Shown here: positions 11,773-33,785 of the stretch, piece by piece | How the letters are laid out: each line of letters begins with the position of its first letter | Numbering within the stretch: the stretch's first letter is position 1 | DNA from: Clostridia bacterium | Lineage (GTDB): Bacteria; Bacillota; DSM-521; Neomoorellales; Neomoorellaceae | Assembly: GCA_030445865.1 (NCBI GenBank) | Contig: JASUSV010000016.1 | Coordinates: 1 to 34,200, forward strand | Direction of reading: 5' to 3' | DNA: 34,200 nucleotides | The notes under the pieces: model-generated | Told to the model about the DNA's origin: nothing | Database searches by the model: none | Seen by the model: only the letters and a program-made list of their open reading frames with translations | Program-made: the position numbers and the translations under genes

Positions 11773-12585
11773 TCAAACCGGCCCCTTTAATATAAATCTT
11801 TCCAGGGCCTCGGCCACGCCCCCATCGTTGTTGGTACCGGTAACGTAAACAGCCGCCGCCTTAACTTCCTCAGGCGCATTGCCCATAGCCACCGCCAGGC
11901 CGGCATACTGAAACATCTCCAGGTCGTTAAAACTGTCGCCGATGGCCATAATCTCCTCCCTGGCCACCCTCAGATACCGGGCAACCGCCTCCAGGCCCCG
12001 GGCTTTATTGGCCTCTGGATGGACGAACTCTAAATAATAAGGGAAGGAACGGGTCATATGAACCTGTCCACCGAATTCCCGGCGGCAGTCGGCTTCCAGG
12101 GCATTTAATTTGTCGGGATCTTCCATAACTAAGATTTTAATCGGCTCGCGGTCCCCAACAAACTGCAGCATATCGGGAGCGATCTGAAAAGGTACCCGGT
12201 TTTTGCGAGTATATTCCCTTAAGGCAGGGCTGTCTTCCTCGGTGCATAGAAAATCGTCCAGGTAGACATTGAAGGGAAAGCCGTAGGATTTTATTTTCCG
12301 GATTATCCTCCGGGCCAGGTCAGGACTCAAGAAGCGAGCATAAAGAACTTCGCCGGTGCCGGAATTTTTCACCAGAGCCCCCTGGTAGGTAATTAAGGGC
12401 AAATTTAGCCCCAGCTCCCGGGCAAAGGGGAGGGCGGCACAAAACATGCGACCGGTTGCTAGGGTGACTTCTACCCCGGCGGCGCGCGTAGCCCGAATGG
12501 CTTCCCGGGAGCGCCCGGATATGCGAGTATCATCGTCCAGGAGGGTGCCGTCAAGATCTATGGCCACCAACTTAATCTCGGGCAT
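11773..12585 (-). CDS. Cof-type HAD-IIB family hydrolase
   Basis: Predicted cytosolic sugar-phosphate or nucleotide phosphatase, 270 residues. The HAD motifs are clear: motif I DLDGTLLDDD at about residues 9-18, motif II with the Thr of LATGR, a class IIB cap in the middle, and motif III/IV in GDSFNDLEMF. The substrate cannot be read from sequence. Start choice: the ATG at 12585 has GGGGGGA 6 nt upstream and gives a normal N-terminus; a frame reaching 12747 overlaps uvrC. The retained start still overlaps the uvrC end by 14 nt, suggesting coupling. Confidence 0.9.
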   Translation of the reverse strand: MPEIKLVAIDLDGTLLDDDTRISGRSREAIRATRAAGVEVTLATGRMFCAALPFARELGLNLPLITYQGALVKNSGTGEVLYARFLSPDLARRIIRKIKSYGFPFNVYLDDFLCTEEDSPALREYTRKNRVPFQIAPDMLQFVGDREPIKILVMEDPDKLNALEADCRREFGGQVHMTRSFPYYLEFVHPEANKARGLEAVARYLRVAREEIMAIGDSFNDLEMFQYAGLAVAMGNAPEEVKAAAVYVTGTNNDGGVAEALERFILKGPV

Positions 12586-14392: not shown

Positions 14393-14412
14393 AATCGCCT
14401 CGCTCCCTGCTA

Positions 14413-14418
14413 ATTATA
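14413..14418 (-). promoter_or_regulatory. Possible -10 box of the uvrC promoter
   Basis: A perfect TATAAT on the minus strand 21 nt before the uvrC ATG, after the RND terminator. No good -35 is seen at 16-18 nt, so the call rests on the -10 and the need for a promoter after the terminator. No Bacillus-type LexA box (CGAAC-N4-GTTCG) is visible. Confidence 0.35.
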
Positions 14419-14463
14419 AGTTTAACACAAAATCTCTCCGGGGCGTATATCTCCATCCCATTC

Positions 14464-14493
14464 AAAAAGCCGGGGCAGCAATTACCCCGGCTT
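14464..14493 (-). terminator. Intrinsic terminator of the RND efflux operon
   Basis: Downstream of the pump gene the minus strand forms AAGCCGGGG-N9-CCCCGGCTT (14493-14467) followed by TTT, a 9-bp GC-rich stem with a U tract. It isolates the efflux operon from uvrC. Confidence 0.85.
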
Positions 14494-14520
14494 TAGCGAG
14501 CGAATTATACCGCCGCCTCT

Positions 14521-17500: not shown

Positions 17501-17643
17501 ATGACCGCCGCCATGGGCAGTTCCAGTTCGGGCAGGAGGTCGATCCGGAGGCGGGTAAGAGATACGATACCTAATAAGATAACCACCAGGACGGCCATGG
17601 TAACCGCAACAGGCCGTCTAACTACAAATCGCGACCAGTTCAT
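14521..17643 (-). CDS. RND-family efflux permease (AcrB/SwrC type)
   Basis: Proton-driven exporter of the hydrophobe/amphiphile efflux RND family, 1040 residues. Visible are the N-terminal membrane helix (MAVLVVILLGIVSLTRLRIDLLPELELP), a large extracytoplasmic loop, the TM block with proton-relay Asp-Asp in GRMVDDAIVVLDN (about 400-412), a second loop after about 555, and the C-terminal TM block containing GIVLANAIVLVDF. In Gram-positive bacteria such pumps (SwrC/YerP) export surfactants, fatty acids or drugs; the substrate here is unknown. Its ATG overlaps the adaptor stop (ATGA), so the two are coupled. No outer-membrane channel gene is present, as expected for a monoderm. Confidence 0.93.
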   Translation of the reverse strand: MNWSRFVVRRPVAVTMAVLVVILLGIVSLTRLRIDLLPELELPMAAVITSYPGAGPEEIEKTVTRPLEDVLGRVQNVKNIRSMSMTGSSVVMLEFEWGTDMDFAALDMREKVDLAEAYLPDAAEKPMVLKMDPNMFPIITLAMHGDMDEQRLKDLAENTVKNRLERLEGVASVSVQGGLKREIQVIFKPERLHAFNLSLLQVVQALQSENLTFSGGKLEDARRDLLIRVTGEFKSLDDIRQVALALPTGGTVRLGEIADVRDYHADRTSFALFNGQPSIGLSIQKQTTANTVAVSREVKKALKELKSELPPGVVIETVLDQADFIQKSINSIYQDIILGSILAMLIIFIFLRNLRSTLIIGITIPISLISTFVLMYFGHMTLNLITLGGLSLGIGRMVDDAIVVLDNIYRHRQEGMEASEAAAFGAGEVTNAVVASTLTTVAVFLPISFAQGLASQIFTPMALTVFSALMASLAVALSVTPMLASKVFAGRLPGEIVNPRNTWQKLMSGQWFDRLSEAYGRFLRWSLGRRQLVLAAAVIIFILSLLLLPLVGFEFFPASDQGELTVSINLAKGTVLEETSRVADRVVEIIQRQPEVKDIYLEIGSSGGTASFLGGETPEAANIQVTLVDLNARKRSAAEVAAAIRKEVAHIPGAEITVAAASFMRHGISGAPVQIDIHGEDFKVLEQLAAEVKKRVETVPGAVSVKSSLEEGRPQVEVVVDRERAAFYNLGAVQIGNTVAAAIQGKVATRYRVGGDEYDLRVRLEEASRQNLSDLENLTVPAPTGVQVPLKEVARLRLGTTPSTIERYNQDRVASVTADLQGRPLGEVMGDIRQKLADMKLPSGYYIDYTGETQQMMETFGDLSFVLIVAILLVYMIMAAQFESLLYPFVIMFAIPLSLIGVVLALLITGRHFGITAFIGVIMLTGIVLANAIVLVDFINILRQRGIPRLEAIVAAGKVRLQPILMTALTTILAMLPIAIGIGEGAELQSPMATAVIGGLLTSTVLTLVVVPVIYTVLEDVRDRILRRRRGSTDGVRVEV

Positions 17644-18782
17644 GGCTTCTGGCCCCCAGTCCGAACCTCCACCCTCCGGCCTTCCTCCAAGAATTCCTGG
17701 CCCTTAACGACGATTTCCTCTCCTTCTTTTAACCCGGAGCGAATCTCTACCCTTTCAGTATCGCTCAAGCCCGGCTCTACTACCCTGGCGGCCGCCCTGC
17801 CTTCACGAACGAGAAAGACCAGATTCTGGCCGCCGCGGTTTATGACCGCCTGTTTGGGTATAACCAGCACATTTTTAGCCTGGGCGCCGGTGAAGGTAAC
17901 CCTGGCGGTCATGCCGGGCTTGATTACGCCGTTGGGATTAGGAATTTCTATTTTAACGGTATAAGTCTTAAGCCTGGGGTCTGCCGCCGGGCTGATATTG
18001 GTCACTTTACCTTTAAATTTCCCGGATGCAGCTGTAGGCACCTCAACGCTTACTTCCTGGCCTACTCTCAGGTAATTTATATCTTTTTCGGTAATTCCCA
18101 GAGTGACTATCACGCTGCTTAAATCGACAATGGTTAATAACGGCCCCTGGGCCATCTCGCCGGGATCCACCATGCGGGCCGTAATCACGCCGCTGAGAGG
18201 GGACTTCACCCGGGTGTTATCCAGGGCTACCCGGGCCTGCTCGACGCTGGCCGCCGTACTTTCTACCTGGACCTGGGCTACTTCCAGGCCCACTTTAGCG
18301 ACCTCGCAGGCCGTCTTGGCCTGGTCGAGCTGCTGTTCAGGCACAGCCCCGGCTTCAAAAAGCGCCTGGGTGCGCTCCAAACTTTTACGGGCGTTGTCGT
18401 AATTGGCCTGGGCCTGCTGCACGTTAACCCTGGCCTGGGCGGCCAGGGCTTCGGCCTGGCGCAGCCGGGCCAGAATATCGCGGTCGTCCAGGCGTACCAG
18501 CACCTGGCCCTCCGTAACTTTATCGCCTATATCTACTGCCACCTCGGCAACCTTACCGGGCACCTGGGCGACAAGATTTACTTCCGCCTTGGGTGCAACT
18601 GTGCCGCTAACTATCACCGGCGAGGCAATATCACCGCGCGCAACCCGGGCCAACTCCACCGGCACCACGGCCTCCTGGGCCTGCCCGGCGGCGGGATTGC
18701 GACGGCCGCAGCCGCCTGAAAGCATAATAAGTACTCCTGCTAAAAGCAGGGACAGGGCTATAGTAGGCTTCAACCCCCGCAT
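17640..18782 (-). CDS. RND efflux periplasmic adaptor (membrane fusion lipoprotein)
   Basis: HlyD/AcrA-type membrane fusion protein, 380 residues. It has a signal peptide with a plausible lipobox ending in Cys25 (SGGC), so it is probably lipid-anchored outside the membrane. Then follow the first half of a barrel-sandwich (PGKVAEVAVDIGDKVTEGQ), a coiled-coil hairpin at about 105-185 rich in Ala/Gln, the second lipoyl half (VKSPLSGVITARMVDPGEM), beta-barrel, and a membrane-proximal domain (VIPKQAVINRGGQNLVFLV). The start ATG has GGAGGGG 5 nt upstream. It is first in a two-gene operon with the pump. Confidence 0.93.
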   Translation of the reverse strand: MRGLKPTIALSLLLAGVLIMLSGGCGRRNPAAGQAQEAVVPVELARVARGDIASPVIVSGTVAPKAEVNLVAQVPGKVAEVAVDIGDKVTEGQVLVRLDDRDILARLRQAEALAAQARVNVQQAQANYDNARKSLERTQALFEAGAVPEQQLDQAKTACEVAKVGLEVAQVQVESTAASVEQARVALDNTRVKSPLSGVITARMVDPGEMAQGPLLTIVDLSSVIVTLGITEKDINYLRVGQEVSVEVPTAASGKFKGKVTNISPAADPRLKTYTVKIEIPNPNGVIKPGMTARVTFTGAQAKNVLVIPKQAVINRGGQNLVFLVREGRAAARVVEPGLSDTERVEIRSGLKEGEEIVVKGQEFLEEGRRVEVRTGGQKP

Positions 18783-18799
18783 TTCTTCCCCTCCAATTA

Positions 18800-18823
18800 A
18801 ACTGACCGGACGTTCGGTCGGTT
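18800..18823 (-). promoter_or_regulatory. TetR-type palindromic operator upstream of the efflux operon
   Basis: The plus strand reads AACTGACCG-GACGTT-CGGTCGGTT: arms match at 8 of 9 positions and the centre contains ACGT. It starts 12 nt beyond the -10 box, overlapping the expected early transcribed region, so a bound repressor would block initiation or elongation. ACCGACCG-type palindromes are typical of TetR/AcrR repressors. No such regulator gene is in this window. Confidence 0.7.
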
Positions 18824-18835
18824 AAACACATAACG

Positions 18836-18864
18836 ATTATATCCTCCCGCCCTATCGGTGTCAA
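18836..18864 (-). promoter_or_regulatory. Consensus sigma-A promoter of the efflux operon
   Basis: Perfect TTGACA (18864-18859), 17-nt spacer, perfect TATAAT (18841-18836) on the minus strand, beginning 9 nt past the uvrA stop codon. Such a strong promoter followed by an operator suggests tight repression and high induced expression. Confidence 0.88.
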
Positions 18865-18873
18865 TGCAACCTC

Positions 18874-21723
18874 CTACCCCAGAGCCGCCAGTCCGCCCTT
18901 CCTGCCGCGCTCCAGGACGGGGCGCAAATACTGGCCGGTATAAGATTCCTTAACCTTGCATACCTCTTCCGGCGTGCCGGCAGCCACCACATACCCGCCC
19001 CGGTCGCCACCTTCCGGCCCCAGGTCGATAATGTAGTCGGCAGATTTGATTACATCTAGATTGTGCTCGATGACGATGACGGTGTTACCCGCATCCACCA
19101 GCCGCTGCAATACGGCCAGGAGGCGCTGGATGTCGGCCATATGCAGGCCCGTAGTGGGCTCATCGAGTATATAAAGCGTGCGGCCGTTGCTGCGGCGGGC
19201 CAGTTCGGTAGCCAGCTTCACCCGCTGCGCCTCGCCGCCGGAAAGGGTGGTCGCCGGCTGGCCGAGCTGGATGTAGCCCAGGCCGACATCCTGGAGCGTC
19301 GCCAGTTTACGGTAAATGCGGGGAATGCGGGCGAAAAACTCCACCGCCTCGTCTACCGTCATAGCCAGCACATCGGCAATGGACTTCCCTTTATACTCTA
19401 CCTCCAGAGTTTCGCGGTTATAACGCTTTCCCTTGCATACTTCGCAGGGCACGTAAACATCCGGCAGAAAGTGCATCTCGATTTTAATAATACCGTCGCC
19501 GCTGCAGGCTTCGCATCGGCCGCCCTTAACGTTAAAGCTGAAACGACCCGGCCGGTAACCGCGGGCCCTGGCTTCCGGCGTAGAGGCAAAAAGCTGGCGA
19601 ATGTCGTCGAAGACGCCGGTGTAGGTGGCCGGGTTGGACCGCGGCGTGCGGCCGATGGGGGACTGGTCTACTTCAATGACTTTCTCTAGGTGTTCGCTTC
19701 CCCTGATCTCCCGGTGGGCGCCCGGCTGGGTGCGGGCGCCGTTGAGCTTCTGGGCCAGGGCGCGGTAGAGGATCTCGTTGACCAGCGTACTTTTGCCCGA
19801 CCCGGAAACGCCGGTAACGCAAATAAAGGTGCCTAGCGGGAAGCGCACATCGATATTTTTTAAGTTATGCTCGGAAGCGCCCAGGACTTCTAGCCACTGG
19901 CCGTTGCCCGGACGCCGGGAATCCGGTACCGGGATGGTAAGCTGCCCGCTTAAATATTGCCCGGTCAGCGACTGGGGCACGCGCATGACTTGGGAGGGCG
20001 TACCGGCAGCCACCACCCGGCCGCCGTTGGCTCCGGCGCCGGGGCCGATATCGATGATGTAATCAGCTGCCCGCATAGTCTCCTCGTCATGCTCCACCAC
20101 GATTACCGTATTGCCCAGGTCGCGGAGGTGTTTAAGGGTTTTAATGAGCCGGGCGTTGTCGCGCTGATGGAGGCCTATGCTGGGCTCATCCAATATATAT
20201 AGTACGCCTACCAGCTGGGAGCCGATCTGCGTGGCCAGGCGAATGCGCTGGGCCTCGCCGCCGGAAAGGGTAGCCGCCGGCCGGTCGAGGGTTAAATAGT
20301 CCAGGCCCACGTCCAACAGGAACTGCAGGCGGGCCAGGATTTCTTTTAATACCTGGCGGGCGATGAGTTCTTCTCTTTCAGTCAACCTAAGGTTGCGGAA
20401 AAAGGCCGCGGCCTGGGCCACCGAGAGGCCGGTAACTTCTTTGATGTTCCGGCCATTGACCAAGACGGCCAGGGCTTCCGGTTTAAGCCTGGCCCCGCCG
20501 CAGGCCGGGCAGGGTTTCTGGCTCATGTAGGACTCGATTTCCGAACGCGACCAATCCGACTGCGTTTCCTGGTAGCGCCGCTCAAGATTGGGGATTACCC
20601 CTTCAAAAGTCCCATACCAGCTACGCACCTGGCCAAAGCGGTTGGTATAACGGAACTTTATCTTTTCCCGCCCGCTGCCGTATAAAATAACCTTTAGATG
20701 CTCGGGGGCCAGCCGGCTTACCGGCACGTCCAGGCTGAAGCCGTAATGTTCGGCCAGGGATTCTAAAAGTTGGGAGTAGCCGTTATTGCTTTTGCTCCAG
20801 GGCAAGATGGCCCCTTCACGCAGCGTTCTGTCCTTATCGGGAATAACCAGGTCGGGATCGACTTCCATGGTCGTCCCCAGGCCTGTGCAGGCCGGACAGG
20901 CGCCGTAAGGGCTGTTGAAAGAAAAAAGGCGGGGCGTTATTTCCGGAAGACTTACTCCGCACTCAATGCAGGCAAATTTCTCGCTTAAGAGAAATTCTTC
21001 CTGGCCGACTACTTCTACTGCCACAACCCCGTCCCCCAGGCGCAAGGCCGTTTCTAAAGAATCCGCCAGGCGCCTGGCTACCCCCGGGCGGACAATTAAA
21101 CGGTCGATGATTACCTCCAAGGTATGTTTTTTATTTTTATCCAGCTTTATTTCCTCGCTTAACTCCCGTATTTCGCCGTCCACCCGCAAGCGCACGTAAC
21201 CCTGTTTGCGCAGTTCTTCCAGGAGCTGGCGGTATTCCCCCTTACGCCCCCGCACTACCGGCGCCATAATTACCAGGCGAGTCCCCTCCGGGTAACCCAT
21301 TAGCCTGTCCACCATTTGGGAAACCTCCTGGGGGCTGATGGGCCGGCCGCAGTTAGGGCAATGGGGCCGCCCGACGCGGGCAAAAAGCAGGCGCAGGTAG
21401 TCGTAAATCTCGGTTACCGTGCCGACGGTAGAACGCGGGTTGTGGCTGGCCGTCTTCTGGTCGATGGAAATGGCCGGCGACAGGCCCTCGATGTAGTCCA
21501 CATCGGGCTTATCCATCTGGCCCAAAAACTGCCGGGCGTAAGCCGAAAGGGATTCCACGTAGCGCCTCTGGCCCTCGGCATAAATGGTGTCGAAGGCCAG
21601 GGAGGATTTACCGGAACCGGAGAGTCCGGTAATTACCACCAGGCGGTCGCGCGGTATTTCGACATCGATATTCTTTAAGTTATGGGCGCGAGCCCCTTTA
21701 ACGATAATTTTGTCCTTAGACAA
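18874..21723 (-). CDS. uvrA: Excinuclease ABC subunit A
   Basis: Damage-recognition ATPase of nucleotide excision repair, 949 residues, with two ABC modules. Walker A motifs are GLSGSGKSS (residues 33-41) and [10 protein letters not shown] (about 640); signatures are [14 protein letters not shown] and [15 protein letters not shown]. Zinc-binding CxxC pairs include CPNCG, CIECG with CPACTG, CPACGG, and the C-terminal CEACSG/CEVCKG finger. The start is TTG at 21723 with GGAGGG about 6 nt upstream; it gives the standard [17 protein letters not shown] beginning. It follows uvrB after a 219-nt gap, and its stop lies just before the efflux promoter with no terminator between. Confidence 0.96.
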
Positions 21724-21942
21724 CTATAACCCTCCGTAAACCTGGACGCCCTCATTTGCTGAAGTTATTGCCTACTGTGGCTGAGGGTATAGGCCTGAGG
21801 CTTCGATGGTTCTCGGCTGACCCATCCCGTTCACCGCCGCAAAGCTAGCGGCTTCGCGCAAGTATCCTAACTTCGGACCAAGCCGACCGCGGCCTTTTCC
21901 CCAGCCTCAAAATAGAACTAGAATAATTACCTCCTAGCTATG
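21724..21942 (-). other. uvrB-uvrA spacer, possibly structured
   Basis: A 219-nt gap between two normally close genes, with no convincing open frame. On the minus strand TGAGGCT (21909-21903) can pair with AGCCTCA (21802-21796), closing a domain of about 90 nt. That domain contains GCCGC-TAGCTTT-GCGGC and other GC-rich inverted segments. A ribosome-site-like GGAGGT follows the uvrB stop but no good start fits it. It may be an RNA element, a repeat remnant or simple spacer. Confidence 0.35.
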
Positions 21943-23925
21943 CTATCCAGCCTGCTGTTTCAACTCCAGGATGGCGTCGCGCAGCTCGGCTGCCCGCTCG
22001 AATTCCAACCGCTTGGCTGCCGCTCGCATTTCTTTTTCCAAAGAGCTAATCAGCTTCGTTAACTCTCGCTTACTCATTTTCTTGCCAGGCTGCCGCACTA
22101 CCCTGTAGGTTGCCCGTTCTTCGGCCGCCCGCGTGGCTTCAATAATATCCCGCACCGCCTTCTGCACCGTTTGGGGAGTTATGCCGTGCTTGCGGTTGTA
22201 CTCCATCTGTATCTCGCGCCGCCGGTTAGTCTCTTCGATGGCCCGGCGCATGGATTCCGTTATGGTATCGGCGTACATGATTACCTGCCCTTCGGCATTG
22301 CGTGCCGCCCGGCCGATGGTCTGGATAAGAGAGCGCTCGGAACGCAAGTATCCTTCCTTATCAGCATCTAGGATGGCCACCAGCGAGACCTCCGGCAGGT
22401 CCAGCCCTTCCCGCAGGAGGTTAATGCCCACCAGCACATCAAACTCGCCCAGGCGGAGATCGCGGACTATCTCCATGCGCTCGATGGCGTTAATGTCCGA
22501 ATGCATGTACCGTACCCTGATGCCTACTTCGCGCAGGTAATCGGTAAGATCTTCGGCCATGCGCTTGGTTAGAGTAGTAACCAGCACGCGCTGCCCTTTG
22601 GCCACCCGCTTGTTGATTTCCCCTATTAAATCGTCTACCTGGCCGGCCACCGGCCGCACGATCACCTCCGGATCCACCAGACCCGTGGGCCTGATGATCT
22701 GCTCCACCACCTGCTGGGAATGTTCCAGCTCATACGGCCCTGGAGTGGCGGAGACGTAAATAACCTGGTGGACGCGATCCATGAATTCCTTAAAGGTCAA
22801 CGGCCGGTTGTCCAGGGCCGAGGGCAAACGAAAACCGTAATCTACCAGGGTCTTTTTACGGCTATAGTCGCCTTCATACATACCGCCGATCTGGGGTACG
22901 GTGATATGGGATTCGTCGATAAATAGAATAAAGTCTTCAGGAAAATAATCCAGTAAAGTGTACGGCGGCTGGCCCGGCTGCCTGCCGGTAAGATGCCTGG
23001 AGTAGTTTTCGATGCCCTTACAGAAGCCAATCTCGCGGATCATTTCCAGGTCGTAGCGCGTACGCTGCTCCAGCCTCTGGGCCTCCAGGAGCTTGCCCTG
23101 CGCCCGCAACTCGGCCAGCCTCTCCTCCAGCTCCTTTTCGATAGCCTGTAGGGCGCGCTCCCGCTTCTCATCCTCTACTACATAATGGCTGGCCGGGAAA
23201 ATGGCCACATGGTAGCGCTGCCCTAAAATCTCGCCCGTTAAAGTATCTATTTCTAAAATGCGCTCCAGGGTATCGCCGAAAAATTCCAGGCGGATGGCCT
23301 TCTCGGTAAAAGAAGCCGGGAAAACTTCCAAGGTATCCCCCCTCACCCGGAAGGTACCCCGGCGAAAGTCGTACTCGTTGCGCTGGTACTGTATATCAAC
23401 CAGTTTGCGCAAAATGGCGTCGCGGTCGTAATCCCGGCCCTCCCGGAGGGAAATCATGAGATTACGGTAGTCCTCCGGCGAACCCAGGCCGTAAATGCAG
23501 GAAACGCTGGCCACAATGATTACGTCCCGGCGTTCAAAAAGGGAGGCGGTGGCCGAGTGGCGTAGTTTATCTATTTCATCGTTAATCGAACTATCTTTTT
23601 CGATATAAGTGTCGGTCTGGGGCACGTAAGCTTCCGGTTGGTAGTAATCGTAGTAGCTTACAAAATATTCCACAGCATTATCAGGAAAAAATTCTTTAAA
23701 CTCACCGCAGAGCTGGGCCGCCAGGGTTTTATTGGGGGCCATAACCAAAGCCGGCCGCTGCACGGCCTGGATAACCTGAGCCATAGTATAAGTTTTACCC
23801 GTACCCGTGGCTCCCAAAAGAGTCTGGTGGCGGTAGCCCCTGCGGAGGCCTTCTACCAGGGCGGCAATCGCCCGCGGCTGGTCGCCCTTCGGCTCAAAAT
23901 CGGACTTTAATTTAAAAGCCGGCAT
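21943..23925 (-). CDS. uvrB: Excinuclease ABC subunit B
   Basis: Helicase-like damage-verification subunit of nucleotide excision repair, 660 residues. Visible are Walker A GATGTGKT (about 39-46) and the beta-hairpin region [16 protein letters not shown] with [22 protein letters not shown]-type DESH ([11 protein letters not shown]), helicase motifs V and VI ([29 protein letters not shown]), and the C-terminal UVR domain ([17 protein letters not shown]) that contacts UvrC follow. The start is ATG with GAGG 5 nt upstream. It follows the chemotaxis-type operon across a terminator and has its own likely promoter. Confidence 0.96.
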
Positions 23926-24276: not shown

Positions 24277-25161
24277 TCAACCCGCTTCCTTCATTGTCAT
24301 CCGGCTAAGCACCCTGCAAGTGAGGTCGTCTCTTGAATGTAAGAGCCATCCGTGCCGCAGGGCTTCTCCAATAAACCTCAAGGCATTAACGTCAAGCTTC
24401 ACCGCACCGGGCATGAAGTCAAGGGCAATATGTTTTCCCTCGGATTCCAGCGCGTCCCCGTATTCTTTATATCTCTCCCAATCGGCATCCCGGATTTGCA
24501 GCATATACCTAACGTCAACATCTGTCACGTCCGGATAGCCCGCCAGGCGCTCATACACTTCTCGACCCTCGATTTCACTCTCTAAGACCACCGTCATGGC
24601 GTCTGGGAGCACTCTTCCGCACATCAGTTCACCCTCTGAAGGCCGGGCAAACTCCAGCCTACCTATCTCTTCTAGCCGCTTCAGTATAACGAACGCCCTA
24701 GCCGCGCGCATTTCTGAAGAGTTGTCCAGCGTGACCCGTACGAACAACTTCACGCACGGTTTATCGTTTTTCGCAGGACTGGAACCGCCTCCCGAGGCGC
24801 GCTCAAGCTCGCTGACTACCTTGTTATACTCCGGGGGAGCGCAATTCGCGATCCCTTCCTCAACGCCGCGTATTAGCGCCCGCAGCACATCCCCCGACTG
24901 CAGCAAGAGGCTGCAAATGCCCTGGCTTACCAGTACTTCCCCTTTCCGGATAGCATCCAGCAAATTCTCCATCTTATGGGCAAACTCCGCTACATCTTTA
25001 AGCCCTACACAAGCCGCCGAACCTTTGAGGGTGTGGGCAATCCTGAAAACCGCGTCAATAGCCCCCCTATCGTTCCACTCCAGTTTTAAAAGTAGCTGTT
25101 CCAACATATCCAGTTGCTCATGGGCTTCATTTAAAAACTCACGCATTAAGTCCACCGCCAT
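24277..25161 (-). CDS. Stand-alone CheA P1-P2 protein (Hpt phosphotransfer)
   Basis: 294 residues corresponding to the N-terminal part of a CheA. Residues 1-105 are an Hpt/P1 domain with the phospho-acceptor His43 in AHTLKGSA. A linker follows, then about 136-220 resembles the CheA P2 CheY-docking domain (VKLFVRVTLDNSSEMRAARAFVILKRLEEIG and VVLESEIEG). Residues 221-294 are an extra tail of unknown function. No dimerisation, ATPase or CheW-like domain is present. The gene lies 5 nt after the kinase gene that supplies P3-P4-P5. The likely role is to accept phosphate in trans from that kinase and pass it to CheY and CheB. The ribosome site is weak, suggesting coupling to the kinase gene. Confidence 0.88.
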   Translation of the reverse strand: MAVDLMREFLNEAHEQLDMLEQLLLKLEWNDRGAIDAVFRIAHTLKGSAACVGLKDVAEFAHKMENLLDAIRKGEVLVSQGICSLLLQSGDVLRALIRGVEEGIANCAPPEYNKVVSELERASGGGSSPAKNDKPCVKLFVRVTLDNSSEMRAARAFVILKRLEEIGRLEFARPSEGELMCGRVLPDAMTVVLESEIEGREVYERLAGYPDVTDVDVRYMLQIRDADWERYKEYGDALESEGKHIALDFMPGAVKLDVNALRFIGEALRHGWLLHSRDDLTCRVLSRMTMKEAG

Positions 25162-25166
25162 AGAGA

Positions 25167-26600
25167 TTACACCATCCTTCCGACCACACCGGAATCTAAA
25201 ATCAAAGCAATGTCCCCGTTCCCCAGCACCGCCGCGCCGGTAAACAACTTCAAATGGGACAGTTGGGGCGGGAGATTCTTCAACACTACGTCTTGTTCAC
25301 CCAAAACCTTCGGCACGGCTACCGCGACACCGGCCAAGAGGACTATAAGTGTAAGCTCATCACTTTCTACCCCCTCTGCACTGGTGTCGAGCAGGCGGGA
25401 AAGCCGGACAACGGGGTATACGGTCTCCCGCAGGGCCACTACTTCAATATCCTTTAAAGAGTGCGGCCTGTACGCCTCCACTTTTACTATCTCTTTGACC
25501 TCCCCTACCGGGATTCCGTACAGACCACCACACTCCAAGAGCACAACCTTGGTTATGCTCATCGAGATAGGCAGTTCCAGGGCTACCTCTGTCCCTGCCC
25601 CCTGCTCGCTGTGCAACATTACCTTCCCACCTAGCCGCTCGACCGTTTCACGTACCACATCCATACCTACGCCCCGGCCGGACACTTGGCTGGCCTCCTC
25701 CCTGGTGCTGAACCCAGGTATAAATATGAGCTGCAACGCTTCCTCAAAGCCCATCCTGTCTGCCTGTTCCTGGGTAATTAACCCCCCACCAACGGCTTTG
25801 CGCTTGACTGCCTCAGCATCAATCCCCGCGCCGTCGTCCTTCACTGTGATAACCACCCGCTCTCCTCTCCGCTCGGCCTTCAGCAGCAGTTCTCCCTCTT
25901 CCGGCTTTCCGGACCGTATCCTCTCTTCCGGCCCTTCTAAACCGTGGTCGAGAGCATTGCGGACCAGGTGCAGCAAAGGCTCGTAGAGGGTAGCGGCTAC
26001 ATTGCGATCTATTGTGACCTCCTCGCCGGATACTTTAAACTGCACCTTTTTCCCCAGCTCCTGTCCCAGTTCACGGATTACTCGTCGGAACCGCTCAAAG
26101 ACAAAACCTATCGGCATAAGCCGCATTTCCATGATTATATCCTGAATTCCCCAGCTCATCCGGCTAAGCGACGCCTGGTATTCTTTAAACTGCCTTAGTA
26201 TCTCCACCGGCAACCCCACTTCTTCCAGACGTCTTAACAGGTGAGTGATTCCGTTCGTGGTAACTATAAGCTCGCCCGTCAAAGCCAGGAGCTTGTCGAT
26301 TTTGCTCTGCTCCACCCTGACTGTCTGGGTGTCTCCCATCTCCCGTCCCGCATCGCGCGCTGTACGGGAAGCATCACCTAAAACCGATTTGCCCTGCAGA
26401 TAGTCCTCGACTAGCTGCCGGGAAGGCGCTACATATTCTTCAGACCTGACCTCGATTTCAAGGCCGTAGTCTCCCCCGTAATCCAGAATACTTACCTGAG
26501 CAAGCCACCCTTTTTCTTCCATTTCCCTCAACAAAGGCCACGCATCGCGGCCCGCCAGCTCCTGAGCCGTTATCCTTAAAGTCTTGGGCCCCTTTTCCAT
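25167..26600 (-). CDS. cheA: CheA kinase lacking P1 (P3-P4-P5)
   Basis: Chemotaxis-type histidine kinase core, 477 residues. Residues 95-155 are the P3 dimerisation helices. P4 ATPase spans about 160-345 with N box HLVRNALDHGLE (211-222), G1 DDGAGID (255-261), F-box region FIPGFSTREEA and G2 GRGVGMDVV. P5, the CheW-like receptor-coupling domain, spans 346-477. There is no Hpt domain; the substrate His is on the next gene. The first 75 residues form an unassigned alpha/beta segment. The start is ATG at 26600 with GGGGGAG 6 nt upstream, one base after the CheY stop; a longer frame to 26639 lies inside cheY. Confidence 0.93.
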   Translation of the reverse strand: MEKGPKTLRITAQELAGRDAWPLLREMEEKGWLAQVSILDYGGDYGLEIEVRSEEYVAPSRQLVEDYLQGKSVLGDASRTARDAGREMGDTQTVRVEQSKIDKLLALTGELIVTTNGITHLLRRLEEVGLPVEILRQFKEYQASLSRMSWGIQDIIMEMRLMPIGFVFERFRRVIRELGQELGKKVQFKVSGEEVTIDRNVAATLYEPLLHLVRNALDHGLEGPEERIRSGKPEEGELLLKAERRGERVVITVKDDGAGIDAEAVKRKAVGGGLITQEQADRMGFEEALQLIFIPGFSTREEASQVSGRGVGMDVVRETVERLGGKVMLHSEQGAGTEVALELPISMSITKVVLLECGGLYGIPVGEVKEIVKVEAYRPHSLKDIEVVALRETVYPVVRLSRLLDTSAEGVESDELTLIVLLAGVAVAVPKVLGEQDVVLKNLPPQLSHLKLFTGAAVLGNGDIALILDSGVVGRMV

Positions 26601-26601
26601 A

Positions 26602-26997
26602 CTACGCTCCCCCGTCGTGGTTGCTCCCACCTTTTGCACGACTAAACATTACACATACCCTTTCCAGTTCTTCCGGCCTGACCGGCTTGACCAGGTAAAG
26701 ATCAGCTCCGGCTTTGTACGCCTGAAACCTGTCATTAGAGCCTGCTTCCGTAGAGACCACGACAATTCCCACTTTCTTGCCCCGCTCGTTCTTCCGGATC
26801 TCTCGCACCAGGTCGTAGCCGTGCATCCTCGGCATATTAATATCTACCAGCACCAAGTCGTAATCAACCGCACAAAACTTCTCCAACCCTTCGTACCCGT
26901 TGTCCGCAAGGTCAACTTGGTGGCCCTGCCCTAACAGAATGCTGGCATGGTACGCCCGCACAGCGCTGGAGTCGTCCACAATAAGCACACGGGCCAT
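26602..26997 (-). CDS. cheY: CheY-like single-domain response regulator
   Basis: 131-residue receiver domain without an output domain. The acidic pair Asp8-Asp9, the phospho-acceptor Asp52 in LVDINMP, the switch Ser82 (usual Thr/Ser position) and Lys104 in VKP are all present, so it should be phosphorylated. The partner is presumably the adjacent P1-P2 protein. The start is ATG with GGAGG only 4 nt upstream. It ends in a short Gly/Asn/Asp-rich tail. Whether it acts on a flagellar switch or another target cannot be told, as no target gene is in the window. Confidence 0.92.
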   Translation of the reverse strand: MARVLIVDDSSAVRAYHASILLGQGHQVDLADNGYEGLEKFCAVDYDLVLVDINMPRMHGYDLVREIRKNERGKKVGIVVVSTEAGSNDRFQAYKAGADLYLVKPVRPEELERVCVMFSRAKGGSNHDGGA

Positions 26998-27024: not shown

Positions 27025-27828
27025 TCACTTTTTGTAAATTATAGCGTTTTTAAACCGCACAGGCTTAAATACTGTAGTTATCCGGCTCATCGACTCCGAA
27101 TGGCCCAAGAACACGTATCCCCCAGGCTCTAGTGCCTGGTAGAAGTGCAGCGCGACCCGCCGGCGCGAAAGGTCGTCAAAATATATCAGGACATTGCGGC
27201 AAAATATGGCGTGGAAGCCCCTTATGTTCCGCATGGCAGCGTCGTCCACCAGGTTTAACTGGTAGAACCTTATCTTCCGTTTCAACAGGGAAGAAATAGC
27301 GTAATTATCCCCCAGAGGGGTAAAGTATCGCTTGAAATAGACTTCAGGCACCTGGCGGACGGCATAGTGATTATAAATGCCCTTCTCGGCCTTGTCCAAT
27401 ACTTCTGTATTTATGTCGGTAGCGTGGATCTCCCACTGCACATCCGGCGCCATCTCCTGCATTACGATAGCCAGGGTGTACGCTTCTTCGCCGGATGCGC
27501 ATCCCGCACACCATATCCTGACCCCGCTATGACCTATACCGTTCTGGCACCAGAGAGGAACGACTTCTTCTGCCAAGCACTTCAACTGGTCGTACTCGCG
27601 GAAAAAGTAAGTCTCGTTCACGGTGAGACTGTTCAAGAGCTCCTGGCGCATTCTGCTCGTAGTGTCAAACTTCAGAGCCCCCAGGTACGCCGTGAAGTCT
27701 TTGAACCCGTATTTTTCCATCTGCTGTTCCACGCGCTTTTCTACATAGTAGAGCTTGGTATCCTCAAAGTAGATGCCTGATTCGCGATATATGTATTCCC
27801 GCAGGCGTTCAAACTCTGCCTTCGTCAT
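27025..27828 (-). CDS. cheR: Chemoreceptor glutamate methyltransferase CheR
   Basis: S-adenosylmethionine-dependent methyltransferase that methylates glutamates on chemoreceptors, 267 residues. It has the N-terminal helical domain, NETYFFRE, the SAM motif CAGCASGEEAYT (107-118), ATDINTEVLDKA, FCRNVLIYFD and the closing LGHSESM. The start is ATG with AGGAG 7 nt upstream. It acts on the single MCP of the operon, presumably; that MCP has no C-terminal CheR-tethering pentapeptide. Confidence 0.95.
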   Translation of the reverse strand: MTKAEFERLREYIYRESGIYFEDTKLYYVEKRVEQQMEKYGFKDFTAYLGALKFDTTSRMRQELLNSLTVNETYFFREYDQLKCLAEEVVPLWCQNGIGHSGVRIWCAGCASGEEAYTLAIVMQEMAPDVQWEIHATDINTEVLDKAEKGIYNHYAVRQVPEVYFKRYFTPLGDNYAISSLLKRKIRFYQLNLVDDAAMRNIRGFHAIFCRNVLIYFDDLSRRRVALHFYQALEPGGYVFLGHSESMSRITTVFKPVRFKNAIIYKK

Positions 27829-27849: not shown

Positions 27850-28443
27850 CTAGCTGGCAATTTTATCGAACTCTCCGCGAAGGCGGGCCAGAGCCCTCTG
27901 GACTATAAAGTCAAGGTATGGGTGGCTAAACCTTTCCCTGCACTTCTCCACCAGCTCGGCGTCGCCCGGTTCCCCTATCTCACTTATGTATTCAATCGCA
28001 GCCCCGACTACGTTTATATCTTGGTCCACAGCCGCCGCCTTCCTCAGCAGGCTCAAGGCCCCAGGACACGTGCCCCGGCCCAAAGCGTGGACCGCCATCA
28101 CCCTCACGTCGCGGTCAGCCTCTTGTAAAAGGGCCTCAAAAATGCTCATACACTTCTCATCGCCCTTATACGCCAAAACCTCAAAGGCCATGCTGCGCAG
28201 GGACGCGTCTTCGCTCTTTAAGAGAGGCGCTACCTCCTCAACCACTTCTTCCGTGTCGCATATAAGGAGCGAAGCCACAATAGTTTCCCTTACCATCAGG
28301 TCCGTCTCACGGGCAAAGGCCTGGACCAGGACTTTCGCGGAGCCGGGAGCCCTGAGCGCTGCAATCTTACACACGACATCTACGCGCTCGCCCGCATCCT
28401 CTGTCCTCTCCAATACCTCGGTAAGGGCTGTTAACTCATCCAT
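27850..28443 (-). CDS. HEAT-repeat protein in chemotaxis operon
   Basis: 197-residue all-helical protein made of about five HEAT-like repeats, visible as recurring alanine/leucine helices with DxxVRxxA-type turns (LMVRETIVASL, ASLRSMAFEVLA, RDVRVMAVHALG, INVVGAAIEYI). This fold usually serves as a protein-binding scaffold. There is no catalytic motif. It lies between cheB and cheR, with a one-base gap to cheB and its ribosome site inside the cheB end, so it is an integral operon member. A HEAT-repeat protein is, as I recall, also part of the Myxococcus Che7 system. Its partner is unknown; CheR, CheB or the split kinase are candidates. Confidence 0.8.
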   Translation of the reverse strand: MDELTALTEVLERTEDAGERVDVVCKIAALRAPGSAKVLVQAFARETDLMVRETIVASLLICDTEEVVEEVAPLLKSEDASLRSMAFEVLAYKGDEKCMSIFEALLQEADRDVRVMAVHALGRGTCPGALSLLRKAAAVDQDINVVGAAIEYISEIGEPGDAELVEKCRERFSHPYLDFIVQRALARLRGEFDKIAS

Positions 28444-28444
28444 A

Positions 28445-29494
28445 TTACCTACCTCCTACCTTCCGCCGTATAATGTCCGCTATCTGATAGCTAGGGGCTA
28501 CCACGTCCACGCCCCCGCGTTCTATCGCGGCACGGGGCATGCCCCACACCACCGCCGTCTCCTCGCTCTCGGCTACAGTCCACCCGCCGCGCCTCCTTAA
28601 CTCTACCAACGCATCTGCACCGTCGTCTCCAATTCCTGTAAGGAGGACCCCAATGGTACGCCTGGGGTCGAACGCCTCCATCAAGGCACGCAAGGTTACA
28701 TCTACTGAGGGCCTGAACTCGGCGTCTTCTGGCCTGAGAGAGAGGTGACAGGCGACGGCACTGCCCTGCCGCCTGAACACAAGATGGTAGCCGCCAGGAG
28801 CAATTAGCGCTAGACCATTGCTCAATTTCATCCCCTCCTGGGCCTCACGCACATGAAGCCTGCAGTACTGATCGAGGCGTTGCGCGAGGCTCGCCGTAAA
28901 GCGCGGTGGCATGTGCTGTACTACCACTATGCCGGCAGGCAGATCCCCCGGAAGCTGCGGCAGTATGTCCTCCAGGACCCTGGGGCCCCCCGTGGATACA
29001 CCTATCATTACTACCCAGTTTAAGTCCGAGACGGCCACCAGGACCCGTTTTTCCACGCGGAGAACCCTTCTCCCAGGCGCTCTCCTCCGCACCCGCGCCC
29101 TGGCCGCCGCCCGCACCTTGCGTATGATCTCATCCGCAAGCCTGTTTATACCCAGCGAGATGGTGCCGTCCGGTTTGGCTACAAAGTCCACCGCCCCAAG
29201 CTCAAGTGCCTCAAACGTTATGAGCGCGTCCTCCTGGGTCAACGACGAAATCATGACTACTTTTGCGGTGGTCTTCGATGTTATATGCTGCAGGGCCGTG
29301 AGGCCGTCCATGCGGGGCATGTTGATATCCAGGGTCACCACGTCGGGCTGGAGGGCGATGGCCTTCTCCGCACCCTCCAGCCCATCCCGTGCCACATCCA
29401 CTACTTCGATATCAGGTGCTCTTTCCAATATTTGCTTTATGGCTCTCCGCATGAACGCCGAATCATCCACTACCAGCACCCGTATAGACTTCAT
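28445..29494 (-). CDS. cheB: Protein-glutamate methylesterase/deamidase CheB
   Basis: 349 residues. An N-terminal receiver with Asp10/Asp11, phospho-acceptor Asp56 and Lys at VAKPDG is followed by an Arg-rich linker and the methylesterase domain. Its catalytic residues are visible: Ser167 in GVSTGGP, His194 in VVQHMP, and Asp291 in TGIGDDGAD. It removes methyl groups from receptor glutamates when phosphorylated and may deamidate glutamines. The ATG overlaps the stop of the triple-CheW gene by 4 nt (ATGA), so they are translationally coupled. Confidence 0.95.
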   Translation of the reverse strand: MKSIRVLVVDDSAFMRRAIKQILERAPDIEVVDVARDGLEGAEKAIALQPDVVTLDINMPRMDGLTALQHITSKTTAKVVMISSLTQEDALITFEALELGAVDFVAKPDGTISLGINRLADEIIRKVRAAARARVRRRAPGRRVLRVEKRVLVAVSDLNWVVMIGVSTGGPRVLEDILPQLPGDLPAGIVVVQHMPPRFTASLAQRLDQYCRLHVREAQEGMKLSNGLALIAPGGYHLVFRRQGSAVACHLSLRPEDAEFRPSVDVTLRALMEAFDPRRTIGVLLTGIGDDGADALVELRRRGGWTVAESEETAVVWGMPRAAIERGGVDVVAPSYQIADIIRRKVGGR

Positions 29495-30999
29495 CCGCTG
29501 ATATCCGTCTCCTCCGTTGCTTCCATAGGCCCGACTCCCTCTTCCCAGGACAGCACGCGCCCCGGGTCCAAAAGTATTACGTTACGCTCGCTGCTAAACT
29601 TGGCTATCCCTGCCACGAAAGACTGGATCCTGTCCTTCACCAAAACTTGTGGAGTAGCTTCAATGCTGCTCACACTGATCTTCGCTACTTCCTTTACGCC
29701 GTCAACCATGAGACCCATCACTGAAGCATCCCCTTCGCAGATTAAGATTCGCACTTGTTCATCCATTTCTCTCTCGGGATAGCCGAATTTGCACCGCAAG
29801 TCGATAATCGGAACTATGCTCCCTCGAAGGTTCAATATCCCCTTCACGAAGTCAGGCGTCCTAGGTACGGCGGTTATGCGTCCCACGCGAATTATCTCGC
29901 GCACACTGTCTATAGGCAGGGCAAACTCTTCCTCACCCAAGATGAAAGTCACAAGTTGCCGCTCCTCTTCCAGTACCCTCCGGCTCCCAACACTGACTTC
30001 CTCTGCCTCACCCTGTTCCCACTCCGTAAGAAACGAAACGTCCCGCAACAGTTTGGAGGCGTCAAGCACAAATAACATACGCTCGTCAGATAGGCGACAT
30101 ATGGCGGTAAACTCGTCTCCGGCACGCCGCACTACCACAGGCACCGGCTCCAAGAGCCGCTCCGCCACCCTCAGAACCTCAGCTACGCTGTCCACTACAA
30201 GTCCAACCGCTACTCTCTTGCCTTCCCCCACGTAGACCACTACTATCCTACCGCCAGCAACCTCGCCCTCAGGAAGGCCGAAAAGCCTCCTCATACTGAT
30301 AAGAGGTAAAACCCTGTCCCGTAACGACACCAATCCCAGTACGTAAGGAGGAGCATCAGGCACTGCATTCCAGCTTTCCGGCAAATGCACTATTTCTTGA
30401 ACACCAGCGATGTCCAAAGCATACTCCTCTTTCCCTACTCGGAAGGTCAAAAGTTGTTGCTCGTTCTCCTGGGCCCTGCTTTCTTCTTCTCCCGCACCAC
30501 GGTTCTCGTACTCTTTAGTGTCGTTAAGGAAAGCAAGCTTGCTGTCGTTTAAACCCAGGTCTTTAAGCATCTGATCCATCTCTATAAGAAGCACAAGCTT
30601 GCCCTCGCCCACACGTGCTGCCTTGGTTACGTAACCTTCGGTATCACCTTTTTCCCGGAATTCATCTACGGCTTCTCTTGGGATATCTACAACGCCGTCT
30701 ACCCGGTCCACTACATACCCCGCCTGCTTCCCTCCAGCATTGGCCACTATCACCCGGTTGCTCTCGTCATCATCCGTACCGCTTATACCTAACCGTAAGC
30801 GGGTGTCATAAATCGGGAGAATGTTGCCCCTGAGGTTGGCGAGCCCCCGCATGTACGGGGGCATCAGGGGCACCTTTACTACGTAAGGAACTCGAATAAT
30901 CTCCTGGAGGTACTCTATGGCTATGCCGAAGCTTTCCTGGCCCAAACGAAACACCACGTATTGATCAAGGCTTGCAACCGAACCACCGGCTACTGCCAT
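29491..30999 (-). CDS. Triple CheW-domain coupling protein
   Basis: 502 residues made of three complete CheW domains at about 11-150, 180-322 and 345-486, joined by short acidic Glu-rich linkers. Each has the conserved receptor/kinase-contact segment: RGLANLRGNILPIYD, LGLVSLRDRVLPLIS and KGILNLRGSIVPIID. A normal CheW is about 150 residues, so this is a threefold fusion. It should couple the MCP to the kinase P5 and could set the geometry of an array. The copies are clearly divergent in sequence, so the fusion is not recent. The start is ATG with GAGGAGG upstream, 30 nt after mcp. Confidence 0.92.
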   Translation of the reverse strand: MAVAGGSVASLDQYVVFRLGQESFGIAIEYLQEIIRVPYVVKVPLMPPYMRGLANLRGNILPIYDTRLRLGISGTDDDESNRVIVANAGGKQAGYVVDRVDGVVDIPREAVDEFREKGDTEGYVTKAARVGEGKLVLLIEMDQMLKDLGLNDSKLAFLNDTKEYENRGAGEEESRAQENEQQLLTFRVGKEEYALDIAGVQEIVHLPESWNAVPDAPPYVLGLVSLRDRVLPLISMRRLFGLPEGEVAGGRIVVVYVGEGKRVAVGLVVDSVAEVLRVAERLLEPVPVVVRRAGDEFTAICRLSDERMLFVLDASKLLRDVSFLTEWEQGEAEEVSVGSRRVLEEERQLVTFILGEEEFALPIDSVREIIRVGRITAVPRTPDFVKGILNLRGSIVPIIDLRCKFGYPEREMDEQVRILICEGDASVMGLMVDGVKEVAKISVSSIEATPQVLVKDRIQSFVAGIAKFSSERNVILLDPGRVLSWEEGVGPMEATEETDISG

Positions 31000-31029: not shown

Positions 31030-32973
31030 TTAGCCCTGCTGGAGTTCGTCCGCCAGGGCCGCAATCTCCTCGATAGCCTGGGCAAGCTCCTTCATGCCTT
31101 CGGCCTGCTGGCGGCTGGCCGCGGCCGCTTCTTCTGCCGCCTTGCTGGCTTCCTGGGCAGACGTCGCTATCTGCTCTACTCCTTTAGTTGCCTCTTCCAC
31201 CCTTAGAAGGCTTTCGTCTGCCTGCCTTTTAACTGCTTGCACCCCTTCAAGGACCACTCGCATGTCGGCCTCGATAATATCAAGGTCGGCCGTCGTCTTT
31301 TTGGCCTTTTCCGCTTCTTTCTGAACTACTTCTCCAATACTGGTAATGTCGCGGAGAACGTTCATGACTTGCTCCTGGATACCCTTTACCATTTCCTTGA
31401 TCTGTTCAGCGTTGCGGGCGCTCTCTTGGGCAAGGTTCCGGATGTCCGACGCCACTACCGCGAACCCCTTCCCGTACTCGCCCGCCCGGGCCGCCTCTAT
31501 GGCGCCGCTTACCGCCAGCATATTAGTCTGGATGCTCACGCTCGCAATAGTATCCACTATCTTATCGATCATGCGGGCGTTCCGCTCAAGCTGGTTGACC
31601 TTTTGGGCATTCTCGAGGTTAACCGCCGCTGCACGCCTGATACCTTCGATAAGCTCATTTGCCCTCGCTTTGTTGGCAGCCAGCAGGTCGCTTAGTTCCT
31701 GGGTCGCCGTCCTGGACTCTTCGGCTTCCTTCGCAATTACCCCCATCGATTTTTCAATCTGCTTGATGGCGCTGGAAGCTTCTTCGGACGCTGAAGCCTG
31801 CTGCTCTGCCGATTTCGCAATTTGATTTAGGGCCGCGTTGATCTCTTCTGCCGAACGGCTGGCCTCCTCAATGGCCGAGGATAGCTCTTCCGCCGCTGCC
31901 GCCAGACTCTCTGCAGATTTGACCACATCAGTCGAGTGCTTGAGTTCATCAGCCAGGTCTGCTAAATTATTACTGCTGCTACTTACCTCGGCCAGCGCCC
32001 GGGCCTGTTGTTCAACCCCCTGCAAGGCCTGCTCGGTGGCGCTGGCCTGCTCCTCAGCTGTGGCCGCTATCTGCTCGCTGCCCTTCTGGAACTCGGCTAC
32101 CGCTTTTTCTACTTCAGTGATAAGCTGCTCAATTCTGGCGGCTCCCTCCACTACATTGGCTATGGAAGCAGCTATCTTCTTAAGCTCCTCAGTGATAACC
32201 TTGCCCTTTTCCGTCTCGCCCCTGGCTACCTCAGCCGCCTTGTTGATGGCTTCGGCCACCATTCGTACGTCTTCCTGCACGCTGTCTACTATCTTTCGTA
32301 TGTCGCTGGCCGCCTTCTCGGAAGTTTCCGCTAGAGTCCTCACTTCGTCCGCCACCACAGCAAACCCGCGGCCGTGCTCCCCAGCCCGCGCCGCCTCAAT
32401 CGCAGCGTTCAAGGCCAGGAGGTTTGTCTGGTCGGCTATCCTCACCACGGTCCGCACGATCTCGCCGATCTTGGACGCCTCTTCTTCCAGCTGCGCTACC
32501 AGCCTGGCTGACTCCTCGCTCCTGGCTGCACTGGCGTCTACCCCTTGTATCAGAACCTCAATATCGTCACTCGTGCGGCCTACAAGGCCCCTGATGGCTT
32601 CGCAGCGGGCCAGCGACTCCCGGGCCTGCTTCACCGAAGCTCTCGCAGCTTCGCCAATAACCCGAATGGCGGCCAGGGACTGCTGGGTAGCTCCGCTGGC
32701 CTCCTGCGCCCCGCTAGCTATCTGCTCCATGGCGGTGCGCAATTCCTGTACTGCACTGGAGGCCTGCTCCACGCCAGAGGAGAGCTCCTCCGTCGCACTG
32801 GCTATCCGCTCGGCTATCTGCTGCTGCTTCGCAAAGGTACGCGCTTGCCGCCGGCGCGCCTCCATTTCCTTCTTGTCACCTTCTCTGACCACGCCGGCCT
32901 TGGCGGTCTCGCTGTACACCCCCCGGGCGCCAGTCGGTAAAGGTTCCAGCGTCTTAGCAGGATTGGTGGGCAT
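31030..32973 (-). CDS. Soluble chemoreceptor with two tandem signalling domains
   Basis: 647-residue methyl-accepting chemotaxis protein, almost entirely coiled coil, with no membrane segment, PAS, GAF, Cache or HAMP domain visible. Two hairpin tips are present: [21 protein letters not shown] (about 179-199) and [21 protein letters not shown] (479-499). Flanking segments also repeat exactly 300 residues apart (EELSS at 62 and 362; EQIA at 300 and 600), so the whole signalling unit is duplicated without indels. The first 50 residues are basic and unstructured-looking. The start is ATG at 32973 with AAGGAGG 10 nt upstream; a TTG at 32982 is too close to that site. It should feed the triple CheW and split kinase. 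Confidence 0.93.
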
Positions 32974-33030: not shown

Positions 33031-33624
33031 TTAGAAAGAGCGAATTAAGTCAAATTTTTGGTTCGCTATTACTTTGAGCAAGTAACCCGCAATCTCAGCG
33101 TCCAACTTCCCCTTGTAAGCCTCCTCCATGACGATATCCAGGGCTTTCCTTACCGGCAGCGCCCCGCGATAGGGCCGAGGACTTACTAGAGCAGAAAATA
33201 CATCGGCCACTGCTATTAAACGACCGCCTGCGCTTAATCCCTCCCCCGTGAGCCCCCGCGGGTACCCGCTGCCGTCCAACCTCTCATGGTGTTGCTCGCA
33301 CGCCTCGATAATAGCAGGGTGGTAACGGTAATACTTTAATATCTGGCCAGTGTACGTAACATGTGCCTCCATAGCCCGGCGCTCGGCAGGCGTAAACACC
33401 TTCCTGCTCATCAAGACGCTCCGCGGTATGTACATCTTGCCTATGTCGTGGAGCAACCCGGCCTCGTAAAGCCACCCGTACCCGCCCCCAAAACCAATCT
33501 CCGCACATAACCGCCAGACTAGCTCCGCCACCGCAAAGCTGTGGGTAGCAGTTACACGGTCTACCGCCTCTAACTGTTGCATAAGATAATTTGTAGTCCT
33601 CGATGGTGTCGCGCCGGAAACCAT
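33031..33624 (-). CDS. HD-GYP domain phosphodiesterase
   Basis: 197-residue stand-alone HD-GYP protein, predicted to hydrolyse c-di-GMP or a related dinucleotide. Metal-ligand and signature residues are present: His28, HDIGK at 59-63, His88, HHERLDGSGYP at 112-122 and the ADVFSAL motif. There is no sensor or receiver domain, so regulation must come through partners or expression. The start is ATG at 33624 with AAGGAG 9 nt upstream; a TTG at 33645 precedes that site. It heads the chemotaxis-type operon, 57 nt before mcp. Confidence 0.9.
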   Translation of the reverse strand: MVSGATPSRTTNYLMQQLEAVDRVTATHSFAVAELVWRLCAEIGFGGGYGWLYEAGLLHDIGKMYIPRSVLMSRKVFTPAERRAMEAHVTYTGQILKYYRYHPAIIEACEQHHERLDGSGYPRGLTGEGLSAGGRLIAVADVFSALVSPRPYRGALPVRKALDIVMEEAYKGKLDAEIAGYLLKVIANQKFDLIRSF

Positions 33625-33785
33625 ATTTTGCCTCTCCTTATACAAGAACCCTTGGGCTTAGCCCTGAGCCCTTGTGGCGTCAGCGCTTAATAACACGCGT
33701 AGAAAAAACCTCGCTTATTCTCCACCCATGGCATTTTCGCCCCTATCTGTCTCCGCGATGCCCTGCCCCACGAAAATACCAGACT

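Follow-up and report, generated by a model that had tools for sequence, protein, structure and literature searches.

Covariation and predicted structure suggest side-by-side signaling hairpins in DosM, a two-tipped chemoreceptor of a Moorella relative

The minus-strand gene at 31030..32973 of the window analyzed here (the whole stretch of 34,200 nucleotides, from a Moorella relative) encodes a chemoreceptor that carries two signaling domains and no sensor in a single chain, and it raises the question of how such a chain places its two tips within a chemosensory array. A sequence-only reading of the gene had offered two answers, a double-length or a side-by-side assembly. We addressed the question from the identity of the gene and its neighbors, the register of the two halves, the covariation between them, and the predicted structure of the chain.

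A dosM gene in an F9-type operon

The gene belongs to an F9 operon-like run in which all members lie on the minus strand:

33031..33645, minus strand: HD-GYP phosphodiesterase, upstream of dosM
31030..32973, minus strand: dosM, double-signaling-domain chemoreceptor, 647 aa, ATG start
29491..30999, minus strand: cheW3, three CheW domains in one chain, 502 aa, with three PF01584 stretches
28445..29494, minus strand: cheB, receiver plus methylesterase
27850..28443, minus strand: HEAT-repeat protein, 197 aa, a conserved F9 cluster member
27025..27828, minus strand: cheR
26602..26997, minus strand: cheY-like receiver
25167..26639, minus strand: split kinase part 1, CheA P3-P4-P5 without Hpt
24277..25161, minus strand: split kinase part 2, Hpt (P1) and P2

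We identify the product of 31030..32973, with near certainty, as DosM of an F9 system. It combines two tandem MCP signaling domains with the absence of a sensory domain and a triple CheW gene alongside, and dosM and cheW3 share one cluster with cheA (split), cheB, cheR, and cheY. PMC9321776 gives as the signature of the F9 class a double-signaling-domain DosM together with a CheW of three concatenated domains; it reports the class in about 2% of 2,781 species, describes about 98% of DosM homologues as being without a sensor, and names horizontal transfer as the route by which the class is thought to have spread. The earlier suspicion that the layout exists elsewhere was therefore correct: it has already been described in F9 systems (PMC9321776 and PMC7534058), and the gene is a plain member of the known DosM family. 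What is absent from the F9 literature examined are the exact 300-residue ruler, the midpoint slip, and the covariation across hairpins reported below, whose novelty we regard as provisional.

Relatives of the host keep the identical gene order, and the order DosM-CheW3-CheB-HEAT-CheR-CheY-CheA recurs in Firmicutes, Proteobacteria, Acidobacteria, Actinoplanes, and a Spartobacteria (Verrucomicrobia) bin, often ending with a second CheY and an MCP of ~400 residues. A triple CheW is present at 80 of 84 homologous dosM loci. Between cheB and cheR, 66 of the 84 F9 loci examined encode a HEAT-repeat protein of ~200 residues, which the consulted portions of PMC9321776 and PMC7534058 do not name as an F9 component. 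An HD-GYP gene also precedes dosM in several other Firmicutes F9 loci, and a link to cyclic-di-GMP is possible. DosM homologues were found in 41 of 398 genomes sampled from the host's phylum, in 9 of 369 sampled Gammaproteobacteria, and in 6 of 396 genomes sampled from the phylum of the Acidobacteria locus; a tblastn search of DosM against plasmids at 1e-60 returned no match.

Cluster I (F9) of V. cholerae encodes a likewise sensorless DosM with tandem MCP signaling domains (VC1403), and its order—VC1403 (DosM), VC1402 (CheW3), VC1397 (CheA)—matches the operon here in its overall direction towards CheA (PMC7534058 and PMC9321776). Unlike in V. cholerae, the kinase is split across two genes, an HD-GYP gene lies upstream of dosM, and both a 24H membrane MCP of the VC1394 type and a second CheY are missing from the cluster. 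A split CheA is shared with the cytoplasmic cluster of Rhodobacter sphaeroides (TlpT, CheA3/CheA4), which forms cytoplasmic sandwich arrays (PMC3964821, PMC6829392), although TlpT has one signaling domain where DosM has two; moreover, the Hpt-P2 protein here is without P5, whereas Rhodobacter CheA3 keeps it. The P3-P4-P5/Hpt-P2 split also occurs in Moorella-type relatives and in Desulfovirgula, and other Firmicutes F9 clusters encode either a full CheA or a longer kinase with a separate Hpt-P2. Another relative (genome G008, L025:7896-9347) has two ORFs in place of an intact P3-P5 kinase gene. In a Moorella-group genome (G012) the operon dosM (L032:5773-8245) is interrupted by an IS21-type element with IstA and IstB genes, and a second, intact orphan dosM lies elsewhere (L026).

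The host genome also holds a second chemosensory system (CheA, CheW, and a membrane MCP) on contig C60, alongside FliM/FliN genes; company of this sort, a further chemosensory class plus flagellar genes, is common for F9 but does not define the class. It has three MCP genes in total, and the two besides dosM carry membrane segments, as judged by sequence inspection. The third of these MCPs (contig C6:55116-55571, about 429 aa) has two N-terminal hydrophobic segments, between which a ligand domain is not apparent, and is a possible partner receptor. A search of the host genome for a small F9-type MCP, using a relative's gene, did not find one, the matches being the three known MCP genes. Elsewhere in the window, uvrB, uvrA, and uvrC (12572-23925) lie close together, separated by an RND efflux pump and its adaptor. 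On contig C69 of the host genome (24618-25619) a PilT match reads through one TAA, which may be a frame end or mark a broken gene. Matches from PADLOC and to the SMC/Rad50 family were rejected as coiled-coil noise.

Two hairpins in fixed register

Below, N1 and C1 denote the helices of hairpin 1, N2 and C2 those of hairpin 2. The parts of the gene on which the analysis turns are these:

32800..32844, minus strand: start of helix N1, residues 44-58 (ARTxAKQQ..AER), near-invariant
32326..32442, minus strand: tip 1, residues 178-216, contact residues essentially invariant (Asp181 in 116/117 sequences, the rest in 117/117)
31924..31938, minus strand: midpoint, residues 346-350 (H-S-T-D-V), predicted helix break and one-residue heptad slip
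31426..31542, minus strand: tip 2, residues 478-516, Gly490 in 117/117
31039..31083, minus strand: end of helix C2, residues 631-645, conserved

An alternative upstream TTG start would add three residues to the chain. MCPsignal is the sole functional Pfam domain, with one match per half in a six-frame search, and short motifs recur at a constant offset: EELSS at residues 62 and 362, AIEAARAGE at 191 and 491, and EQIA at 300 and 600, with a further copy of the latter at 83. Self-comparison at a lag of 300 gave 117 identities over 347 positions (33.7%) without gaps; the runner-up lags were 307 (18.8%, one heptad more) and 286 (14.1%), and none between 280 and 320 except 300 rose above 19%. A gapless alignment of one half against the other scored 503, compared with at most 144 in 200 shuffles. 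Self-comparison, shuffles, and Pfam thus bear out what had been read from the letters alone, namely two MCP hairpins offset by exactly 300 residues with no indel. The accompanying claim that the protein lacks a transmembrane or ligand domain also held, in that Pfam found neither a sensor nor a HAMP domain in DosM, which has no membrane domain either. Neither Pfam nor AlphaFold2 revealed a folded sensor hidden in the first 170 residues, AlphaFold2 predicting residues 1-30 to be disordered and the chain to be helical from 31 on, and both hairpins, rather than only one, are predicted.

Each half of DosM corresponds to a hairpin of the kind seen in the Thermotoga maritima soluble MCP fragment Tm1143c (PDB 2ch7) and other 36H-44H MCPs: the second half aligned with a 2ch7-type hairpin over 304 residues at 4.1 Å, and the first half matches by sequence. 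Those receptors are single hairpins that dimerize with an identical copy, unlike the two-hairpin DosM.

The offset between the halves is a family property. Measured from the tip 1 glutamate (E193) to the tip 2 glutamate (E493), the spacing was 300 at 75 of 76 loci in a first scan, at all parsed loci of two further sets, and at 42 of 46 loci in a third set, where identity fell as low as 34%, the other four having 301. With duplicates removed there were 121 distinct homologues, drawn from several phyla, of which 117 keep 300 residues and four have 301 (L046 and L146; L172; L173; L182). In these four the added residue sits within an arm (near 226, 250-262, or 439) and never at the midpoint. Across 42 aligned DosM sequences, residues 44-645 contained neither an indel nor a proline. 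MCP length is known to vary by whole heptads (Alexander and Zhulin), so that the spacing in DosM is strict by comparison.

The tip cores had been put at about 179 and 479 in the sequence-only reading; two tips are indeed present, conserved over residues of about 178-216 and 478-516, on the minus strand. The positions that make trimer contacts on both tips were assigned by Tsr numbering. At the equivalents of Tsr 373, 377, 380, and 382 the residues of tip 2 are not the usual ones. Tip 2 is more variable than tip 1, and it has a conserved set of its own (Ile481, Met485, Val488, Asn/Ser489, and Gly490); besides Gly490, Glu493 and Gly503 are found in 117/117 sequences and Arg496 in 112/117. The distinct AVSG-type second tip noted at the outset is, across these 117 sequences, a conserved trait of the family. 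Such family-wide differences would fit a mixed tip pair as well as they would fit different binding partners. Methylation-type sites are present in both halves, with cheR and cheB nearby.

Covariation across the hairpins and a slip at the midpoint

We computed a ridge-regularized column covariance over 117 sequences (effective number about 62) and averaged it by the difference in height from the tip, the tip apex being set to residue 199 by within-hairpin controls; as a null, 100 alignments were simulated along this tree, each site having its own rate and residue profile. The within-hairpin controls peaked at equal height (N1-C1, z 6.6; N2-C2, z 6.0). Peaks at equal height were also found across the hairpins, for N1-C2 (z 4.9) and C1-N2 (z 5.2), both above the maximum of the 100 nulls; N1-N2 (z 2.2) and C1-C2 (z 2.5) covaried weakly. 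The cross-hairpin signal was seen in each of four height ranges between the tip and the midpoint and persisted without near relatives and under changed regularization. In a new set of 34 sequences taken alone, the N1-C2 signal was weak, and single couplings were noisy.

Two other sources of such a signal were considered and rejected. Columns at equal height might covary through shared variability, but N1-N2 and C1-C2 share it as well and yet were much weaker, and the simulated nulls show no peaks. Gene conversion between the halves would raise N1-N2 and C1-C2 rather than N1-C2 and C1-N2, a pattern that was not seen.

The observed pattern is the one expected when N1, C1, N2, and C2 form a square four-helix bundle (in the order N1-C1-N2-C2) whose tips are level. 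Given that N1-C2 and C1-N2 covariation comes near the strength seen within hairpins, the two hairpins probably pack against each other in a mixed bundle, formed either by the chain folding back on itself or by two extended chains in an antiparallel rod dimer; covariation fits these two topologies equally. A mixed bundle would set the two tips side by side, which would explain the persistence of both.

The midpoint of the chain has a signature of its own. In alignment-averaged hydropathy, the core occupies positions 1 and 5 mod 7 from residue 44 to about 337 (N1, tip 1, C1) and positions 0 and 4 mod 7 from about 352 to the end—a one-residue heptad jump between about 338 and 352. Put differently, the spacing of 300 is 43 heptads minus one residue, where a continuous coil would want 301. 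A slip of this kind is what would be expected for a turn, unlike one continuous coil. It coincides with a conserved N-S-T-D-V-x-K-S-A/S-E motif, and the strongly conserved midpoint residues are Ser347, Thr348, Asp349, Lys352, and Glu355.

AlphaFold2, run on one full chain (pLDDT 87.7, pTM 0.60), predicts helices at residues 31-346 and 350-646 with a break at Ser-Thr-Asp, where the chain is turned back. Residues 270-430 modeled alone (pLDDT 93.6) show the helix break at the same midpoint, and antiparallel helical hairpins are its structural matches along the full 161 residues (RipA, 1.9 Å). For the full-chain model the matches are to compact bundles made of one chain, and they cover stretches, 122-577 for example, that include both tips. 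The predicted topology was read from these structural matches, and a run on one chain carries a bias towards burying interfaces within that chain. Pore-forming toxins, tweety channels, and tektin-like rods also came up as structural matches and were set aside as unrelated long-helix look-alikes.

Arrangement of DosM in the array

Our best explanation, slightly favored but tentative, is that a single DosM chain folds back on itself, as the heptad slip, the conserved break, and both AlphaFold2 predictions suggest. DosM would be the scaffold receptor of an F9-class cytoplasmic array, without a sensor of its own. Both tips have the residues through which MCPs trimerize and contact CheW and the kinase, and DosM would nucleate arrays with the products of the adjacent genes, triple CheW and split CheA; the neighboring CheR and CheB presumably control its methylation. 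Folding back at Ser347-Thr348-Asp349 would bring hairpins 1 and 2 side by side in a four-helix bundle ~22 nm long with both tips at one end, so that one chain may do the job of an ordinary receptor dimer, with the peculiarity that its two tips are non-identical. A sandwich array would arise if such bundles formed two layers whose non-tip ends face each other. Opposed 22 nm bundles overlapping by ~9 nm would fit the 35 nm layers of V. cholerae, if the spacing is 300 there as well; we liken this overlap to E. coli receptor fragments in 31 nm layers, which must overlap.

Three other readings have to be weighed against a folded-back chain. Published tomography of V. cholerae DosM supports an extended rod with one tip per end that spans two baseplates; of the two assemblies proposed from the letters alone, side-by-side hairpins are thus what covariation and AlphaFold2 point to, whereas the tomography favors the extended form. 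It speaks against folding back, as do a pTM that reaches only 0.60 and the preference of a one-chain prediction for intrachain interfaces. Extended chains running in opposite directions would mix tip 1 and tip 2 at each end and bind two baseplates. Such a dimer contains the same mixed bundle and hence predicts the same covariation, a further point against settling on the folded-back chain, as are the effective number of about 62 sequences, the noise of single couplings, and the weak N1-C2 signal in the 34-sequence set; the dimer agrees with the published rod and has equal ends, as a symmetric sandwich requires. Its difficulties are a one-residue heptad slip and a predicted break of the helix that would both fall halfway along the rod, and a length of ~44.5 nm (300 residues at about 0.1485 nm each, if the V. 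cholerae spacing is 300) against baseplates about 35 nm apart in V. cholerae (PMC3964821). We consider the antiparallel dimer a serious contender, if a less probable one.

Chains extended in the same direction, with like tips paired at each end (both copies of tip 1 at one baseplate, both of tip 2 at another, different one), would be the simplest reading of "one signaling domain at each end", and the conserved differences between the tips could then mean two unlike baseplates. A parallel dimer, however, predicts no N1-C2 or C1-N2 covariation away from the middle, and both exceed all 100 nulls and are found at all heights; this disfavors it, and we hold it to be improbable. Less credible still is that only one tip, tip 1, functions and that the second hairpin is degenerate structural filler. 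The unusual residues at the four Tsr equivalents and the greater variability of tip 2 would suit that reading, but mere filler is not expected to keep a tip conserved across phyla, and methylation-type sites occur in both halves.

Taking the folded-back chain together with its consequences for the array, we put at roughly 0.4 the probability that DosM is a covalent pseudo-dimer with its two tips side by side and that F9 arrays consist of obligate mixed tip pairs, the sandwich arising where the bases of opposed bundles overlap.

F9 arrays are said to be held together by DosM. If its hairpins pair with each other, the accepted picture of these arrays and the fits to their density will need rebuilding. 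The host is a lean case, in that its F9 array would need DosM alone or borrowed membrane receptors, and its genome tests the published inference that F9 arrays need another soluble receptor. Homodimeric receptors do not permit asking what each half does to the kinase, whereas a receptor "dimer" with two fixed, different tips would, if the arrangement is true, let the effect of each half on the kinase be asked.
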